Shown here: positions 4,578 to 10,571 of the stretch, one piece after another
Layout of the letters: the number at the start of each line of letters is the position of its first letter
Numbering within the stretch: the stretch's first letter is position 1
Assembly: GCF_000724545.1 (NCBI RefSeq)
Contig: NZ_JHBV01000039.1
Span: forward strand, 62,001-126,000
DNA: 64,000 nucleotides
Direction of reading: 5' to 3'
DNA from: Aureispira sp. CCB-QB1
GTDB lineage: Bacteria; Bacteroidota; Bacteroidia; Chitinophagales; Saprospiraceae
Notes under the pieces: generated by a model
What the model was told of the DNA's origin: nothing
The model's database searches: none
What the model saw: only the letters and a program-made list of their open reading frames with translations
Made by a program: the position numbers and the translations under genes

Positions 4578-4924
4578 AAAGAGTAGACTTGCCCAATATA
4601 ATATTCTGTATTCAACTCTATTTCGTATTGTGTGAAAAAAAAAGTTACTACAGAATATTATATTGATTAATTTAATTAAATTTTTTTTTTGTTTTAAAAT
4701 ATCTTTCTTGCTTTAGGTTTTATTTTGTTTTAATGATTGTTTTGATTATTATTGTATGTAATCCTTATTCTTTAACTAAATACTAAATCGATTTAGATGG
4801 AACTATTTAAGTGTTTTGTACGCTTTTTTAGACAAATAAAAAATATAAAATTTTGCTTCAATTCTAAAAAAATGGTTTAATGAATAACTAAATCGTTTTA
4901 GTGTTATTTGTAATACGAAAATAT
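4578..4924. other. Intergenic region, AT-rich
   Basis: Apart from the inverted repeat near its left end this stretch contains only runs of T and A and no coding frame. It must hold the promoter of the T9SS lectin-like gene, but I see no clear TAnnTTTG box. Confidence 0.6.
4594..4665 (+). terminator. Hairpin with 17-bp perfect stem after the DUF4139 gene
   Basis: CAATATAATATTCTGTA at 4594-4610 is matched by its exact reverse complement at 4649-4665, with a 38-base loop that includes an A9 run. It starts 16 bases after the DUF4139 stop. The stem is AT-rich and the loop is long for an intrinsic terminator, so it may be a terminator, a transcript-stabilising 3' structure or a shrunken inverted-repeat element. 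Confidence 0.5.
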
Positions 4925-6700
4925 ATGTACGGGAAATTTTACTTAATTTTAATAATTGGTTTATGGGCAAACCTTCCCCTAATAGGACAATATTGTTCCT
5001 CAAATTCCACAAATTCTAATGCTTCTAAAATAGACAACATTCGCTTGGTGGGAGAGACCGTGACCATTAATCAAAACTCGGTAGGACCCTGCGAAACCTA
5101 CACTGATTATACTGCTTTACCTGCTGCCGATTTGATGCTAGGCAATAGTTATACTGTAGAGGTGACATTGGGGACTTGTAATAATAATAGAGATAAATCA
5201 GCCAATGTATACATTGATTTTAATCAAGACAATGATTTCAACGATCCTGGCGAAGATTTAGGTAATACAGGACTAACGAATGGAACAGCGACCTTATCTA
5301 TTAATTTTACTATTGGCATGTGCCCACAGCCTTCACTAGGACTAACAAGAATGCGGATTGTTGCCGTTCAAGGAACAGGAGCAATTTCGCCTTGTGGGAC
5401 GTATACAAGAGGTGAAACAGAAGATTATTCAGTGCGAATCATTACCCCTGCTGCTAGTGGTGCATTTTATTTGGTTGGTAATGCAGTCTCTACAGGGGCT
5501 TCTTGTGTACAACTTACTAGTGCTGTAAATAGTCAATTGGGAATGGCTTGGGATATTGGGGCACCACTTAACTTTACACTACCATTTTCTTATGATTTTA
5601 CAGTAAATCTAGGGAGTGATAATGGAGGGGCAGATGGGATTATGTTTATTGTGCAGAATGATCCTAACTTGCAGTGTGTTACGCCAGCAGGAGGCTGGGG
5701 GGCTGGAAATATATCCAATTCACTATGTATTGAAATTGACACCTATCTGAATTTTGAAGATAGAGACGATGGCTTGCCTGGTGTTGTTTGTACAGGTTCA
5801 GGAACGGAACCAGATCATTTGGATATTTGGCTAAATGGAAATATAAACCCGACAACAGGAACTTGTGGAACAGGGGCTAGAATTATTCCTGCGGCAATTC
5901 CTTTGCTGGATGGTGGTGTAGATTATAATATAGAAAATGGGTTGAATCATATTTTTAGAATTACGTGGATTCCAGGCTTACCAGGAACATTAACCGCTAC
6001 GATATTAAATGCTGCGGGAACTACCAGTTATGGAACCGTTAGCTACTCGTTTGATCCGATGACGGTGTTTGGAACGAATACGCCAATGTATGGTTTTTCG
6101 GCTTCAACAGGTGGCTTAAACAATCAGCAGTCTTTTTGTTCTCCTACAATTCTATTGAACAATGATTTGATGGCTTTTGATGCGCAGATGAATACTGAAA
6201 ATACAGTTTATTTAGAGTGGTTGGCAATGACTCCTAACAATGGGGGGTATTTTGAAGTTGAGAAAAGCAGAGACGGTCAAAACTTTGAAATGTTGACAAC
6301 TGTGCTGGCACAAGGTAATGCTCAACAACCTTATAAATACAATAGTACAGATCCATATCCATTCATAGGAGATAATTATTATCGATTGAGGCAAGTAGAT
6401 GCTCAAGGAACCTCAATTTACTCTCCAATAAAAGTTATTCATAGAAAAGAAGGGACTGCTATGATTAATGTTTATCCTAACCCTGTACAAAATCAAGTTA
6501 CAATCGAGTTTCTGGATATTGAAAAAAAAGAGGGGACAGTTGTATTATATAACCACTTAGGGCAAACTATTCAAGAACTGTCTTTGTCCCCGACTTCTAA
6601 AATGACAGTAGATGTCTCTACCTTGGTTGCTGGCGTTTATTTTTTACAAATAAAGAATGTTCATTATACCAGTAAACTATTTAAACTGATCAAACAATAA
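4925..6700 (+). CDS. T9SS-secreted protein with GEVED and lectin-like domains
   Basis: The open frame begins at a GTG at 4901, but the ATG at 4925 directly precedes a signal peptide (MYGKFYLILIIGLWANLPLIG), giving 591 residues. Domains in order: a GEVED-type beta domain (about 45-172) with the hallmark VYIDFNQDNDFNDPGEDLG and GETEDYSV; an L-type-lectin-like domain (about 178-415) with NLGSDNGGADGIMFIVQND and DHLDIWLNGN; a fibronectin-like linker (about 425-500) of the kind usual before sorting domains; and a T9SS type A sorting domain (last 75 residues, from NVYPNPVQNQVTIEF to GVYFLQIKN). It is predicted to be exported by the Por/T9SS route and to be cell-surface bound or released, perhaps binding glycans. 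A terminator hairpin follows. Confidence 0.87.
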   Translation: MYGKFYLILIIGLWANLPLIGQYCSSNSTNSNASKIDNIRLVGETVTINQNSVGPCETYTDYTALPAADLMLGNSYTVEVTLGTCNNNRDKSANVYIDFNQDNDFNDPGEDLGNTGLTNGTATLSINFTIGMCPQPSLGLTRMRIVAVQGTGAISPCGTYTRGETEDYSVRIITPAASGAFYLVGNAVSTGASCVQLTSAVNSQLGMAWDIGAPLNFTLPFSYDFTVNLGSDNGGADGIMFIVQNDPNLQCVTPAGGWGAGNISNSLCIEIDTYLNFEDRDDGLPGVVCTGSGTEPDHLDIWLNGNINPTTGTCGTGARIIPAAIPLLDGGVDYNIENGLNHIFRITWIPGLPGTLTATILNAAGTTSYGTVSYSFDPMTVFGTNTPMYGFSASTGGLNNQQSFCSPTILLNNDLMAFDAQMNTENTVYLEWLAMTPNNGGYFEVEKSRDGQNFEMLTTVLAQGNAQQPYKYNSTDPYPFIGDNYYRLRQVDAQGTSIYSPIKVIHRKEGTAMINVYPNPVQNQVTIEFLDIEKKEGTVVLYNHLGQTIQELSLSPTSKMTVDVSTLVAGVYFLQIKNVHYTSKLFKLIKQ

Positions 6701-6721: not shown

Positions 6722-6754
6722 ACACAATCTTGTTCTCAATGAGCAAGATTGTGT
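6722..6754 (+). terminator. Rho-independent terminator
   Basis: ACACAATCTTG (6722-6732) pairs perfectly with CAAGATTGTGT (6744-6754) around an 11-base loop and is followed by GTTTTAT. It lies 21 bases after the stop of the T9SS lectin-like gene. Confidence 0.8.
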
Positions 6755-6817: not shown

Positions 6818-7093
6818 TTAATGAATGTTGAGGCTTAATGTTCCTAAACAAACTGAAAACCCAATGATTGCAATTAATAATCCTGCTAAAATAAGCGACA
6901 TCCCTCTTGAACGATTGGGGTCGTTGCTAAAAATAGCCATAAAAAGCCCTACAACGAATATACCTCCAGCATGAATGTAGGCAATAATAGCGCCCGCCAA
7001 TGCTGCATCACCATTATCACCTGCATGAATTAGTAAGGTATAGAGTATAAAAAGAAGTAGATTGATACCAATAATTTTTCCTGAATTTTCCAT
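6818..7093 (-). CDS. Small integral membrane protein
   Basis: This is a 91-residue hydrophobic protein with three likely membrane helices (about 8-24, 33-58 and 65-88). The loop between helices 2 and 3 contains SNDPNRSRG. I recognise no family. It is the last gene of a four-gene minus-strand operon, starting 23 bases after the radical SAM gene, so it may support the reaction carried out by the radical SAM and Lgt-like proteins. Confidence 0.7.
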   Translation of the reverse strand: MENSGKIIGINLLLFILYTLLIHAGDNGDAALAGAIIAYIHAGGIFVVGLFMAIFSNDPNRSRGMSLILAGLLIAIIGFSVCLGTLSLNIH

Positions 7094-7116
7094 AATACTA
7101 GGCTTGTCGATTTCTG

Positions 7117-8514
7117 TTAATTAGGCAGAACTTCTTGTCGAAGAACGTTCAATATTAGCTTTAATTCATCATTTCTATAAAATAGATTCATTGTTTCAAA
7201 AGGAATTATTTTTCCATCTGTATTGACGATATGAACACAAGATTTTTTAATTGCTCGTACATCAAAGTCATAAGCATCCATAAAATTCATGATAATAATT
7301 CTAAAAAGGTTGCTATAATTTAATTCAGGAGCAACGATATTGGGCAAACAGCACAGTAAATCGTGAAAACCTTCTTGAACTGTATCAACCGATTGAGCCG
7401 TACTAAAAACGTCTAATATTTTTCCTTTTAGAACTTGATCGTGTTCATAAACGATGGTATTTTTAGAATTATTGAGCAAGGCTTCTGGGTCAACCAAACT
7501 AGTTAGAGGAATGACTTTGTCAGCTACTTTCAAGGCATAGCCCATCACCAACGCATCTGGATTGCAAGGTACAGGTATTAAGTCGTTGGGTTTAAAAATA
7601 GGTGCTTGTTCTAAAATTTTGCGACGAATTTCTGTATTGGTCAATCTGTCTTTGCTAGGATCAAACTCTTCTAAACGACCACTAATTTGTATGGGTTGAA
7701 AGGTCACTCCTCGAACGCATTTTTGTTTTAATGCATAGTTGATAATTGTCCCAATTTCGTCATCGTTCAAACCTTTTTGAAGGGTTACTACTAGCGTGGT
7801 AGATAGATTGAGTTGATTGAGGTTGTCTAGTGCTTTTTGGCGAATTTTAGTCAAGTCCTTGCCTCTTAATTTCAACAATGCTTCTGGTTTAAAAGAATCA
7901 AATTGTAAGTAAATTTCGAAGCGAGGCATATAACTTGCTAAGCGTTTGGCAAACTCAAAGTCTGTTCCAATTCGAAGCCCATTGGTATTGAGCATTAGAT
8001 GCTTGATGGGTTTTGATTTTGCTAAGTCTAATATTTCAAAGAATTGGGGATGAATGGTGGGTTCTCCGCCACTAATTTGAACGACATCAGGCTCTCCTTC
8101 GCTGGCAACAATGGCATCTAACATGTTGTTAATTTCCTCCAAACTTCGATGATTGCCACAGGAAGGAGAAGAACTAGCATAACAAATGGGACAGGTTAAA
8201 TTGCAGCGATCTGTAATTTCAATTAAGGTTAGGCAAGAATGTTGTTCGTGATCAGGACAAATCCCGCAATCATACGGACAACCGTATTTGGTCTCTGTAT
8301 GAGGTTTTAAAGGATATTCTGATGCTTTGTTATAATTTCTTATTTGCTTGTAATAGGCTATATCGTCTGCAATTAATACTTTTTGGTGACCGTGTGTGGG
8401 GCAATGTTTGCTTAAATAAACATTCTCATCTTCAAAAATAACTTTGGCGTTGATGGTGCGATGACATTCATTGCAAAGGCTTTGTGTATGGTCATAATAA
8501 ATGTAGTTGCGCAT
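7117..8514 (-). CDS. Radical SAM protein of the MJ0619/Tes-like type
   Basis: The open frame begins at a TTG at 8562; the ATG at 8514 fits the conserved N-terminus (MRNYIYYDHTQSLCNECH), giving 465 residues. The N-terminal zinc-finger-like part has C14-x2-C17 and C38-x2-H. Next comes an extra cysteine cluster, CPYDCGICPDHEQHSC (79-94), then the radical SAM CxxxCxxC at 104-111 (RCNLTCPICYA) and SGGEPTIHP. This arrangement is characteristic of the MJ0619 group, which includes archaeal pterin methylating enzymes and tetraether lipid synthase (Tes); members use more than one Fe-S centre. The substrate here is unknown. The Lgt-like neighbour, 86 bases upstream, points to a lipid substrate, which is inference. 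It is not close to any pterin gene. Confidence 0.85.
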   Translation of the reverse strand: MRNYIYYDHTQSLCNECHRTINAKVIFEDENVYLSKHCPTHGHQKVLIADDIAYYKQIRNYNKASEYPLKPHTETKYGCPYDCGICPDHEQHSCLTLIEITDRCNLTCPICYASSSPSCGNHRSLEEINNMLDAIVASEGEPDVVQISGGEPTIHPQFFEILDLAKSKPIKHLMLNTNGLRIGTDFEFAKRLASYMPRFEIYLQFDSFKPEALLKLRGKDLTKIRQKALDNLNQLNLSTTLVVTLQKGLNDDEIGTIINYALKQKCVRGVTFQPIQISGRLEEFDPSKDRLTNTEIRRKILEQAPIFKPNDLIPVPCNPDALVMGYALKVADKVIPLTSLVDPEALLNNSKNTIVYEHDQVLKGKILDVFSTAQSVDTVQEGFHDLLCCLPNIVAPELNYSNLFRIIIMNFMDAYDFDVRAIKKSCVHIVNTDGKIIPFETMNLFYRNDELKLILNVLRQEVLPN

Positions 8515-8600
8515 AAGGTTGATATAGCTTGAGGGTAATGTTAAATGAATTTTCAAAAACAATTGGCGACCTATTGTAAAGTATAGTTTTTTCTGGACGA

Positions 8601-9371
8601 CTACTTATTGTGTAATAATTGTTTAGGATGAAAAAATAACTGATAAAAGGTTCGACTATAGTAAAGCATTCCTAATAAACAGGTAAGTTGAATGGTACTT
8701 AGCCCAAAAGAAAATTTATAACCAGGCTTGATGAAATCAATCATAAAACGGAAAATAAAATAAGCCATTAAAAAGAATTGAAAACGAATGCCTTCTCTAA
8801 AGTTAACGTTTTTTTCAATACAAACAAAAGATAGCCAAAGCGTTCCTAAGAACAGAATTTCGTAAAGTGCTACTGGATGGCGGCGAATACCATCTCCCAA
8901 ATACAAAGCCCAAGGTAAATCAGAGGGAAGACCGTAGGTTTGTTCGTGAACTCCCATGGAAAGGCAACCTATTCGACCAATCATCATGCCCAATAGGAGG
9001 GGATAAACAAATAAATCTCCAGAAGATCGCTTTTCTCCAATGATTTTTTTTACGATTTCAACACAAATCAAGCCCCCGAACAAGGCGCCAACAATGGTTT
9101 TGTTCAAATAAAAATAGAGTAGTCTATTTGGTGAATTAAAAAATTGAACAGGATTTTCTAAACTACCAATTAATCTAGAAAAAATGAGTGCCCCTAATGC
9201 TGCCCCAACTAATATCCAAAGCCGATTGGGTTCTGAAATAGTGTCTTTTTGTTTTCGACGTAAATACAAGAAGTATTGAAACCCAATTGCAATGCCTAGC
9301 ACTTCAAAAACCAAATGTGCCAATATGCTGAATGGACCAATTCTAAAAACTAAAGGAAATGTTATCTCCAT
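8601..9371 (-). CDS. Lgt-like integral membrane protein (divergent prolipoprotein diacylglyceryl transferase family)
   Basis: This is a 256-residue protein with about seven membrane helices. It has the Lgt overall pattern: IGPFSILAHLVFEVLGIAIGFQ-like N-terminus, GRIGCLSMGVHEQ (132-144) in place of the Lgt signature, RHPVALYE (164-171) and YFIFRFMIDFIKP (204-216). The canonical signature GRxGNFxNGE has its conserved Asn replaced by Cys136 and its Glu by Val141, so ordinary lipoprotein diacylglyceryl transfer is doubtful. It lies between a membrane-anchored unknown protein (34 bases upstream) and the radical SAM gene. I infer a related transfer or glycerolipid-handling role working with that enzyme; true lgt should be elsewhere in the genome. 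Confidence 0.82.
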   Translation of the reverse strand: MEITFPLVFRIGPFSILAHLVFEVLGIAIGFQYFLYLRRKQKDTISEPNRLWILVGAALGALIFSRLIGSLENPVQFFNSPNRLLYFYLNKTIVGALFGGLICVEIVKKIIGEKRSSGDLFVYPLLLGMMIGRIGCLSMGVHEQTYGLPSDLPWALYLGDGIRRHPVALYEILFLGTLWLSFVCIEKNVNFREGIRFQFFLMAYFIFRFMIDFIKPGYKFSFGLSTIQLTCLLGMLYYSRTFYQLFFHPKQLLHNK

Positions 9372-9405
9372 GTGGTGGTTATTAATTACTTAAAAAGTTA
9401 TTAGG

Positions 9406-10500
9406 CTAATAATCAAAAATGTGCTCTATCTCAATTTCTTTTTGCTCCAACTCCAAAACCAAGGCACTTAAGTTAGCAACGAGAACGACTAAGGCAACAC
9501 GTTCTAATGTTTTATGGGTGGCAATGGTTTGTCTAAAAATAGCTTTAGAATACTGTTGTGGGGCTTCCCAGTTTTGGGGTACCACAACGGTCAGTAAAAT
9601 CGCTGAACGATTTCCTGCAATCTCTATAATACGAGCCCCCGCTTTTATCAAAGCACATAACGAAGGGTTGAAGGCTGCATAGCGGGGCAATGTGATTAAC
9701 GTAGCTTCTGGTGAAAGTACCTTTATAAGTGCCAAACCTAAGTCGTTTTGATCGACTTCGGGTGGTAGTTGGTTAATGACAACAGCGGTAACTGGTGCAG
9801 CAACGCCATAAGCAGATTTTGTTCCCATGCCCAACAAAAAGCCATAAAAAGCCTTAAAAAGCAATTCACCACTAATAAAAACTCGACGTTCTATCTTGCG
9901 TATCCAATTCCATTCTAAGCAAGTTGTTTGAAACCAAAGCTGCCGAAATTCCTTTAAAAAAGAATAAAGATACCAAGGTTCTTTTTTTATAAAATCAACA
10001 TAGCGTTGCGTATAAGCAGCATAAAAGCGATCTTCTGCCGTCATTTTAGAAGGAATGAGGTCTGTTAAACGCCCCACACTACCTTCATACAAAAGCTTGC
10101 CTCGATACTCGATCAATGTGCTATATCCAATCACTTGGATCATTGTGTGGTATTGCTTATTGTAAGGAAAGTAAGGGGCAATGGCTTTAGACAAAGCATG
10201 GTAGCTGTCCCAAAATTGTTCTACGTGTTGCTCATAAGGAAAATGAGTAGCGGTCTGCTGTTTAAAATAAGCGGCTTGTTCGGCAGGGCTAAAAACTAAA
10301 AACCATTCAGGATAGGTTAAAAATGTCTGGTCGCCAGGTCGTTGATAGGCTGTTGGTGTCAAGGGCGAAACGTTTGTCGGAAACCAATCCTTGTTCAATT
10401 GTATGGTCGGTTTTATTTTCTTTGCTCGAATTCTTGTTTTAATAAAAAAAAGAAGGAAAATAAGAGCTAAAAATAAGAGTAAAGAAAGCAATATAGGCAT
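9406..10500 (-). CDS. Membrane-anchored protein of unknown function
   Basis: This is a 364-residue protein. The frame is open to a TTG at 10530, but the first ATG, at 10500, precedes an uncleaved N-terminal membrane helix (MPILLSLLLFLALIFLLFFI) followed by basic residues. The remainder is soluble or membrane-associated, with aromatic-rich segments (TYPEWFLVFSPAEQAAYF near 59-77, EPWYLYSF, LEWNWIRKIERR) and a hydrophobic patch near 215-240. I do not recognise the family. It is the first gene of the operon with the Lgt-like, radical SAM and small membrane proteins, and a good Bacteroidota-type promoter lies just upstream. Confidence 0.72.
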   Translation of the reverse strand: MPILLSLLLFLALIFLLFFIKTRIRAKKIKPTIQLNKDWFPTNVSPLTPTAYQRPGDQTFLTYPEWFLVFSPAEQAAYFKQQTATHFPYEQHVEQFWDSYHALSKAIAPYFPYNKQYHTMIQVIGYSTLIEYRGKLLYEGSVGRLTDLIPSKMTAEDRFYAAYTQRYVDFIKKEPWYLYSFLKEFRQLWFQTTCLEWNWIRKIERRVFISGELLFKAFYGFLLGMGTKSAYGVAAPVTAVVINQLPPEVDQNDLGLALIKVLSPEATLITLPRYAAFNPSLCALIKAGARIIEIAGNRSAILLTVVVPQNWEAPQQYSKAIFRQTIATHKTLERVALVVLVANLSALVLELEQKEIEIEHIFDY

Positions 10501-10541: not shown

Positions 10542-10571
10542 CAAAGATACTTGTATTTAAATCAGGGCAAA
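10542..10571 (-). promoter_or_regulatory. Bacteroidota-type promoter of the Tes/Lgt-like operon
   Basis: On the minus strand TATCTTTG (10549-10542) matches the -7 consensus TAnnTTTG, and TTTG (10571-10568) lies 18 bases upstream as the -33 element. The predicted transcript starts about 35 bases before the ATG at 10500. Confidence 0.65.

Follow-up and report, generated by a model that had tools for sequence, protein, structure and literature searches.

A candidate lipid-modification cassette of an Lgt-like protein, a radical SAM enzyme and a small membrane protein in Aureispira sp. CCB-QB1 and other bacteria

Background

A group of minus-strand genes was analyzed in a 64,000-nucleotide (nt) stretch of Aureispira sp. 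CCB-QB1 (contig NZ_JHBV01000039.1, positions 62,001 to 126,000; hereafter the window). Three of these genes, encoding an Lgt-like membrane protein (gene B), a radical S-adenosylmethionine (SAM) enzyme (gene C) and a small membrane protein (gene D), may together form a modification cassette for the small protein.

Among described enzymes, the archaeal tetraether synthase Tes joins two lipid tails by a C-C bond and proceeds by way of a carbon-sulfur intermediate. The ligands of its rubredoxin iron, N-terminal cluster and radical SAM cluster have been reported, and Met439 and Tyr459 were described as completely conserved among the archaeal homologues (Lloyd et al. 2022, PMC9433317). According to the same report, MJ0619 and Tes are one protein and the earlier annotation as a pterin methylase is incorrect. 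Thus, the Tes-type and MJ0619-type pterin enzymes that an earlier sequence-only reading of the window had offered as separate alternatives for gene C collapse into one. A total of 456 bacterial Tes homologues have been counted, with the guess that they make branched tetraethers; the word "prolipoprotein" is absent from the main text of that study (Zeng et al. 2022, PMC8941075). In Escherichia coli Lgt, H103 of the HGGL motif was found to be essential by mutants, and an arginine network was proposed to catalyse lipid transfer (Mao et al. 2016, PMC4728403).

The nearest published idea that we found is that of the DAG-RiPPs, ribosomally synthesized and post-translationally modified peptides (RiPPs) carrying a diacylglyceryl group (Chen et al. 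2025, PMC12636315). Both there and in our proposal a modified peptide is combined with a diacylglyceryl group. However, DAG-RiPPs are described with the ordinary lipoprotein pathway, an N-terminal cysteine and an MNIO maturase, whereas in the cassette these places are taken by an Lgt paralogue of its own, a radical SAM enzyme and a C-terminal cysteine. A literature search, with most subscription journals outside it, gave no paper whose title or abstract could be recognised as dealing with a pairing of Lgt and a radical SAM enzyme, in line with the earlier statement that no such pathway is described. The cassette looks like a so far undescribed way of lipidating a membrane peptide and altering it further.

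Results and discussion

Conservation of the three-part unit

The main features are as follows.

8601..9371, minus strand: gene B, Lgt-like membrane protein, 256 amino acids (aa)
7117..8514, minus strand: gene C, radical SAM enzyme with ATG start; a TTG start extends it to 8562, from which its residues are numbered here
6818..7093, minus strand: gene D, small membrane protein of 91 aa, proposed substrate
6848..6850, minus strand: codon for the proposed lipid acceptor, Cys82 of gene D

When 296 genomes of Bacteroidota were searched, the radical SAM protein was found in 26 (E 1e-30 or better) and the Lgt-like protein in 25 (E 1.9e-29 or better), and 24 genomes carry both. The radical SAM protein of one genome (G066) exceeds the Tes cut-off and has no Lgt-like protein close to it. 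Another genome (G096) has a more distant pair, which is adjacent (Lgt at 2e-14).

Gene neighbourhoods were compared in 106 loci, consisting of the window, 25 loci from the phylum genome set and 80 from a wider scan (the best 80 of at least 584 relatives, with 36 genus labels). A same-strand Lgt-like open reading frame (ORF) lies within 3 kb of the radical SAM gene in 98 of the 106 loci, and 73 of 101 Lgt-like ORFs, some being fragments, overlap the radical SAM ORF or are at most 20 nt away. The loci with no such ORF within 3 kb are L045, L052, L057, L061, L117, L072, L101 and L130. In L045 and L052 the Lgt is located elsewhere in the genome, L057 is the Tes locus, the Lgt of L072 is found some 4 kb upstream, and L101 and L130 have just 309 and 66 nt of contig upstream. 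The pairing noticed in the sequence-only reading is thus real and widespread, with the enzyme present in 24 of the 25 genomes that carry the Lgt-like protein.

Clustering of the neighbours (at least 55 aa) in the 80 wider-scan loci recovered the radical SAM enzyme in 79 loci, the Lgt-like protein in 75 and one subset of the small proteins in 43, and no further neighbour family was present in more than 12 of the 36 genus labels; the 25 phylum-set loci were similar. Genes B, C and D are co-inherited, and their order, sequence features and predicted folds are likewise established. The closest relative of gene C among the matches listed is from an uncultured Aureispira (84 %).

The three-part set recurs in a few Actinomycetota besides many Bacteroidota. 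Nine plasmid records contain a relative of the enzyme, and eight were examined (Halorarius was left out). Mycobacterium branderi and M. avium have an Lgt-like gene, two small-protein genes and a radical SAM gene in a row, and their small proteins end in GGLC, VGVC, AGIC or AGYC followed by TGLNPxxY. In Nonomuraea (L143:4123-5229), a 368-aa protein consists of about 270 mostly proline-rich residues followed by the membrane end of a small protein (AGICTGINPSLYG) and terminates in ILSAGICTGINPSLYG; the Lgt-like and radical SAM genes come next. Persicobacter carries the Bacteroidota form of the cassette. The relatives in Mycolicibacterium vanbaalenii and in three haloarchaeal records are located beside a methyltransferase, and no Lgt is annotated in the stretch shown. 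No relatives were found in viral contigs.

The small membrane proteins share a C-terminal cysteine motif

When the neighbours were read across the loci, nearly every locus was seen to have a small membrane protein whose C-terminal end consists of a hydrophobic helix and a G-x-x-C-like motif, with a short tail behind it. In gene D, a basic loop (NDPNRSR) is followed by the last helix, GFSVC and a 9-residue tail. The sequence-only reading had counted gene D as one of two further membrane proteins; it is a membrane protein, but its membership in a cysteine-motif set had been overlooked.

To count as having the motif, an ORF of 45-160 aa needed a Cys among its final 20 residues, with positions -15 to -5 (11 residues) all hydrophobic and a G within five residues ahead of the Cys. 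Of 451 small ORFs in the vicinity of the pair, 124 have the motif, compared with 8 of 3537 elsewhere (6/1550 on the same strand, 2/1987 on the other strand). A first, stricter motif with a 15-residue charge-free stretch had caught few ORFs (30/446 near ones, 25/106 loci), as the helix is shorter than was assumed. At least one motif ORF is present in 97 of the 106 loci (one copy in 74, two in 19, three in 4, none in 9), namely the window, 21 of the 25 phylum-set loci and 75 of the 80 wider-scan loci. Among the motif-negative loci, L056 and L066 do have such an ORF by eye, and in L050 and L092 the contig ends within 120 nt of the radical SAM gene. The motif ORFs are 54-123 residues long and 118 of the 124 are downstream of the radical SAM gene. 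In the 80 wider-scan loci, a motif ORF follows within 120 nt after 67 of 79 radical SAM genes, but after only 1 of 437 other genes (at least 200 aa) and none of 69 Lgt-like genes. Over a hundred small ORFs are thereby gathered into one recognisable set.

Ahead of the last helix, the loop carries a positive charge in 119 of 124 motif ORFs and the tail after the Cys is near neutral, which should place the Cys on the outer side, where Lgt acts. For gene D, the predicted topology is a positive inner segment, a hydrophobic helix and a Cys at the outer end. The Cys is the only invariant column in an alignment of 30 small-protein rows, which were selected for having the motif. Relatives of gene D in Saprospiraceae and Mucilaginibacter loci share 33 % identity (E-values down to 8e-7). 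The window has a single small-protein copy, and no convincing second copy of gene D was seen in its own genome.

Pfam labels for the small proteins (BrkB, SepZ, DUF998 and others) were dismissed, as all are under the cut-offs. The C-terminal residue is His in a good number of the small proteins, frequently within N-I/F/M-H or G-M-H, and this ending is seen in the window at 6818-6823. In L071, a copy with Phe for Cys directly follows the radical SAM gene and an intact copy stands behind it.

The Lgt-like protein

The sequence-only reading had named the second protein Lgt-like. This is borne out by Pfam (LGT, 74.6 bits; cut-off 24.9), although gene B is far below the NCBI lgt cut-offs (TIGR00544, 32.5 bits vs 118.9). 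At C14 in the same genome there is a better-scoring Lgt (200 bits), and thus gene B need not serve the ordinary lipoprotein pathway. The AlphaFold model of gene B (pLDDT 93) has one Foldseek match at E 0.001 or lower, which is E. coli Lgt (5azb; E 1e-6, TM 0.57).

Gene B and E. coli Lgt have the Pfam LGT domain, the fold and the catalytic arginine network in common. Residues R133, R208, D212, E171 and Y204 of gene B correspond to R143, R239, E243, E202 and Y235. In contrast, gene B lacks H103, whose column is occupied by V94 (MAFFT) or F98 (HMMER alignment to 5azb), and has C136 at the position of N146. We surveyed these residues in 100 Lgt-like sequences, three of which come from genes without an adjoining radical SAM gene. 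All 100 keep the equivalents of R143, R239, Y235, E202, G142, G145 and E243 (as D or E), 92 have K and 8 have R at position 246, and N146 is replaced by Cys in all 100.

A second Lgt-like protein of the same genome (396 aa; L031, G000:C21:130247-130951) also has Cys for N146 and lacks H103.

The radical SAM enzyme is a relative of Tes and TrsS

The cysteine cluster that had been claimed ahead of the radical SAM motif was found (C95, C99, C102 and H105, then C120-C124-C127). Gene C also has a rubredoxin-like motif (C30, C33, C54, H57) and additional conserved cysteines (C110, C333, C404, C405 and C442). Its Pfam matches are Radical_SAM, the HMPTM zinc ribbon and, under the cut-off, Fer4_12. Among the 25 best of 57 NCBIfam matches, none reaches its cut-off; the best score is that of TrsS (NF045646, 323.8 bits; cut-off 490), and Tes (NF045702) scores 288.3 bits (cut-off 450).

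Gene C matches the archaeal GDGT-MAS structure (PDB 7tol) in sequence (E 2.6e-68), and this is also the best fold match (TM 0.77). Both have the C-X2-C-X20-C-X2-H rubredoxin site, the C/C/C/H ligands of the N-terminal cluster and the radical SAM CX3CX2C motif, and all ligands for three of the four Tes metal sites are kept. The structure model is only fair (pLDDT 73, weak at 364-408), and the ligands of the C-terminal cluster were therefore not assigned from it. At the C-terminal end, the equivalents of Met439 and C456 are kept, while those of C338, C470 and Tyr459 of MJ0619 are not. All 19 main-group rows have M425 at the Met439 position and I445 at the Tyr459 position; Met439 is not a clean test, as the Tes row L057 has Asp in that column. 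C333 and C404-C405 are invariant in the same 19 rows and absent from both Tes rows, as is C110. C333 is present in all other groups and C404-C405 also in three haloarchaeal rows, and C110 and C333 are common to gene C and four methyltransferase-linked relatives. The partner genes differ from those of Tes as well. Membership of gene C in Tes, as earlier suggested, is not borne out by the score (288 bits vs 450) or by the three residues that are not kept.

Unlike TrsS, gene C has no in-frame stop read as selenocysteine, and it lacks neighbours such as the methyltransferase, CcdA and disulfide oxidoreductase that are present at L140. Two methyltransferase-linked relatives were scanned, and TrsS was again the best score, under the cut-off. 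In-frame stops in four matches (L017, L018, L026 and L027) were considered for a selenoprotein; this was rejected, as the ORFs there are stop-free over the aligned stretch.

A phylogeny with Tes had been proposed as a check of the earlier reading. In an unrooted tree of 31 rows, from which only the label grouping is used because long branches meet, Tes groups with the methyltransferase-linked enzymes, apart from the Lgt-linked groups (95/81). This separation would fit one origin of the Lgt/radical SAM association, which we propose provisionally. The four enzymes of the actinobacterial group (including L056) lack the ligands of the N-terminal cluster, so the shared job, whatever it is, does not require this cluster.

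One protein of the phylum set (L057:7364-8821, in G066) scores 493.8 bits, over the archaeal-type Tes cut-off, and neither an Lgt nor the small-protein motif adjoins it. In Mycolicibacterium and haloarchaeal plasmids (L140, L144, L163 and L164), the radical SAM relative abuts or overlaps the methyltransferase gene, and the haloarchaeal relatives adjoin redoxin-type and DUF547 genes.

Proposed mechanism

We give about an even chance to the reading that genes B, C and D constitute a modification cassette, in which the Lgt-like protein lipidates the Cys of the small membrane protein and the radical enzyme alters the product. A lipid-modified product, as proposed before, is the best reading; we infer both chemical steps, as well as the acceptor and the order. 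Gene D would be made as a membrane hairpin, with its last helix running from the positive inner loop to the outer side and ending in a lipobox-like [GS]-[LF]-[GS]-x-Cys and a short tail. This would be the layout of a lipoprotein signal peptide placed at the C-terminus, with cleavage not expected. Judged by its position, its topology and the kept arginine network, the Cys is the most likely acceptor of the Lgt-like protein. Gene B would transfer a diacylglyceryl group from phospholipid to this Cys through the kept arginine network, and the altered active site (H103 lost, N146 to Cys) would suit a non-canonical acceptor. Gene C, of the Tes/TrsS group and presumably cytosolic, would then attack an unactivated carbon of this product with a 5'-deoxyadenosyl radical, so that a C-C or C-S bond is formed; the carbon would most likely belong to the acyl chain or the adjoining helix. 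By analogy with Tes, alteration of the lipid chain or the helix end is the most likely role of gene C.

If this reading holds, these bacteria would have, in addition to the ordinary lipoprotein pathway, a separate route dedicated to lipidation, with its target cysteine at the C-terminus instead of the N-terminus. For bacterial relatives of tetraether synthase, a partner would be defined and a substrate proposed that can be tested, at least within this branch.

Several observations count against the cassette reading. The main difficulty is that the Cys should be outside and the radical enzyme cytosolic, which needs explanation; tail ends meeting in the middle of the membrane could be a way round it. 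His at the H103 position is found in none of the 100 Lgt-like sequences, whichever alignment is used. The usual lipobox has G, A or S at -1. In the motif ORFs this residue is mostly I, T or V, and A or S in only 24 of 124; gene D also lacks the N-terminal signal peptide with lipobox of a lipoprotein, its Cys being at 82 of 91. No motif ORF was found in L045, L061, L099 (these three also by eye) and the Tes locus L057, in L134 it sits 2 kb away downstream, and a few tandem copies are without Cys (L071, L066 and L082). In genome G017 the Lgt-like protein occurs (L160) but the enzyme is missing, and no motif ORF is close by. In addition, the motif thresholds were loosened once, on the same 106 loci, after the first version failed; for this reason the next-ORF count in the 80 wider-scan loci is the fairer control.

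A bolder form of the cassette reading, which we hold to be distinctly unlikely, is that the radical enzyme joins the outer diacylglyceryl tail on the Cys to the tail of an inner-leaflet lipid or of a second lipidated peptide. A membrane-spanning lipid-peptide conjugate of this kind would resolve why an inner-side enzyme is kept with an outer-side acceptor. If true, Tes chemistry would have been borrowed for a C-terminally lipidated peptide, giving membrane-spanning conjugates.

Alternative explanations

The small protein could instead be a membrane subunit or scaffold that docks both enzymes, which would make an unusual free lipid, with its Cys binding a metal or forming a disulfide. An overlap between the radical SAM stop codon and the start of the leading small gene is seen in 32 loci, as for co-made subunits, and the fold and metal sites of gene C suggest a lipid-handling enzyme. 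However, the small proteins are far more variable than the enzymes (mean column identity 22 % in the 30 chosen rows vs 51 % and 74 %), and 23 of 97 loci contain two or three diverged copies (26-61 % identical in the compared pairs), both of which are more like precursors than subunits. Since the third conserved part carries a lipobox-like Cys, a lipid-bearing membrane peptide would also seem a more probable product than a free lipid. We consider the scaffold explanation doubtful.

It is unlikely, in our judgement, that the radical SAM enzyme modifies the peptide itself before insertion (e.g. by a thioether or C-C crosslink near the Cys) and that the Lgt-like protein then anchors or lipidates it. 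The gene D set does resemble RiPP precursors, being small, variable, sometimes tandem and directly after the gene of a possible maturase, and lipidated RiPPs exist (PMC12636315). Nevertheless, a SPASM or peptide-recognition domain is not among the Pfam matches of gene C (a separate recognition protein was not searched for), the 25 NCBIfam matches above are all below their cut-offs, and a single Cys is the sole invariant residue in the aligned rows.

Lastly, it is highly improbable that the operon makes free membrane-spanning lipids, tetraether-like or other, with an incidental small protein, and the unusual membrane lipid of the sequence-only reading is unsupported as a tetraether: although the closest solved structure of gene C is the archaeal tetraether synthase and bacterial Tes homologues have been proposed to make branched tetraethers (Zeng et al. 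2022, PMC8941075), gene C is under the Tes cut-off, has C110 and C333 and does not keep Tyr459, C470 and C338, Tes groups in the tree with the methyltransferase-linked enzymes rather than the Lgt-linked ones, and the protein that does exceed the Tes cut-off (494 bits, G066) has no close Lgt-like protein or motif ORF at its locus.

Gene A and other features of the locus

Three further features were listed in and around the cluster.

9406..10500, minus strand: gene A, 364 aa with ATG start; the mechanical ORF runs to 10530 with TTG
10542..10571, minus strand: promoter-like TTTG-N18-TATCTTTG of Bacteroidota type, preceding the gene cluster
6722..6754: terminator-like 14-pair inverted repeat and T run, in the interval separating gene D from the convergent gene (4901-6700)

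Gene A, which has a hydrophobic stretch at its N-terminus as judged by eye, was found solely in its own genome, in two copies (the paralogue on C40 has 42 % identity). It had no match at E 1e-8 in the 295 other Bacteroidota genomes and was not found in the relatives' 105 loci, some of which are short; among plasmids, only four Tritonibacter/Ruegeria records match (27-29 % identity). Gene A was therefore rejected as a component of the system. The four genes had been expected to form a conserved operon and to co-occur across Bacteroidota; genes B, C and D are kept together and are the conserved unit, but gene A is not conserved with them. The overall interpretation of the sequence-only reading is thus partly supported: the Lgt/radical SAM pairing and a lipid-modified product stand, and Tes membership and four-gene conservation do not.

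In L054 (4784-5855, G156), an ICMT/PEMT-family methyltransferase gene and a DUF4395 gene lie between the radical SAM and Lgt-like genes, and in L055 an ORF of the same cluster as this DUF4395 protein precedes the Lgt. A possible role of the extra genes at L054 is tailoring of the lipidated cysteine. A locus titled Limnohabitans, a betaproteobacterium (L078), has the Bacteroidota form of the cassette and is probably a mis-binned metagenome contig.

When the ORF coordinates were rechecked, the four minus-strand genes within 6818-10500 and the intergenic gaps of 34, 86 and 23 nt were as claimed. The proposed TTTG-N18 promoter was located as well; it is weak evidence alone, because TTTG-N18-TANNTTTG occurs three times in the window. 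Terminator-like sites number 3, compared with 3.3 expected in shuffles, and the stems of the other two have 6 and 5 pairs.

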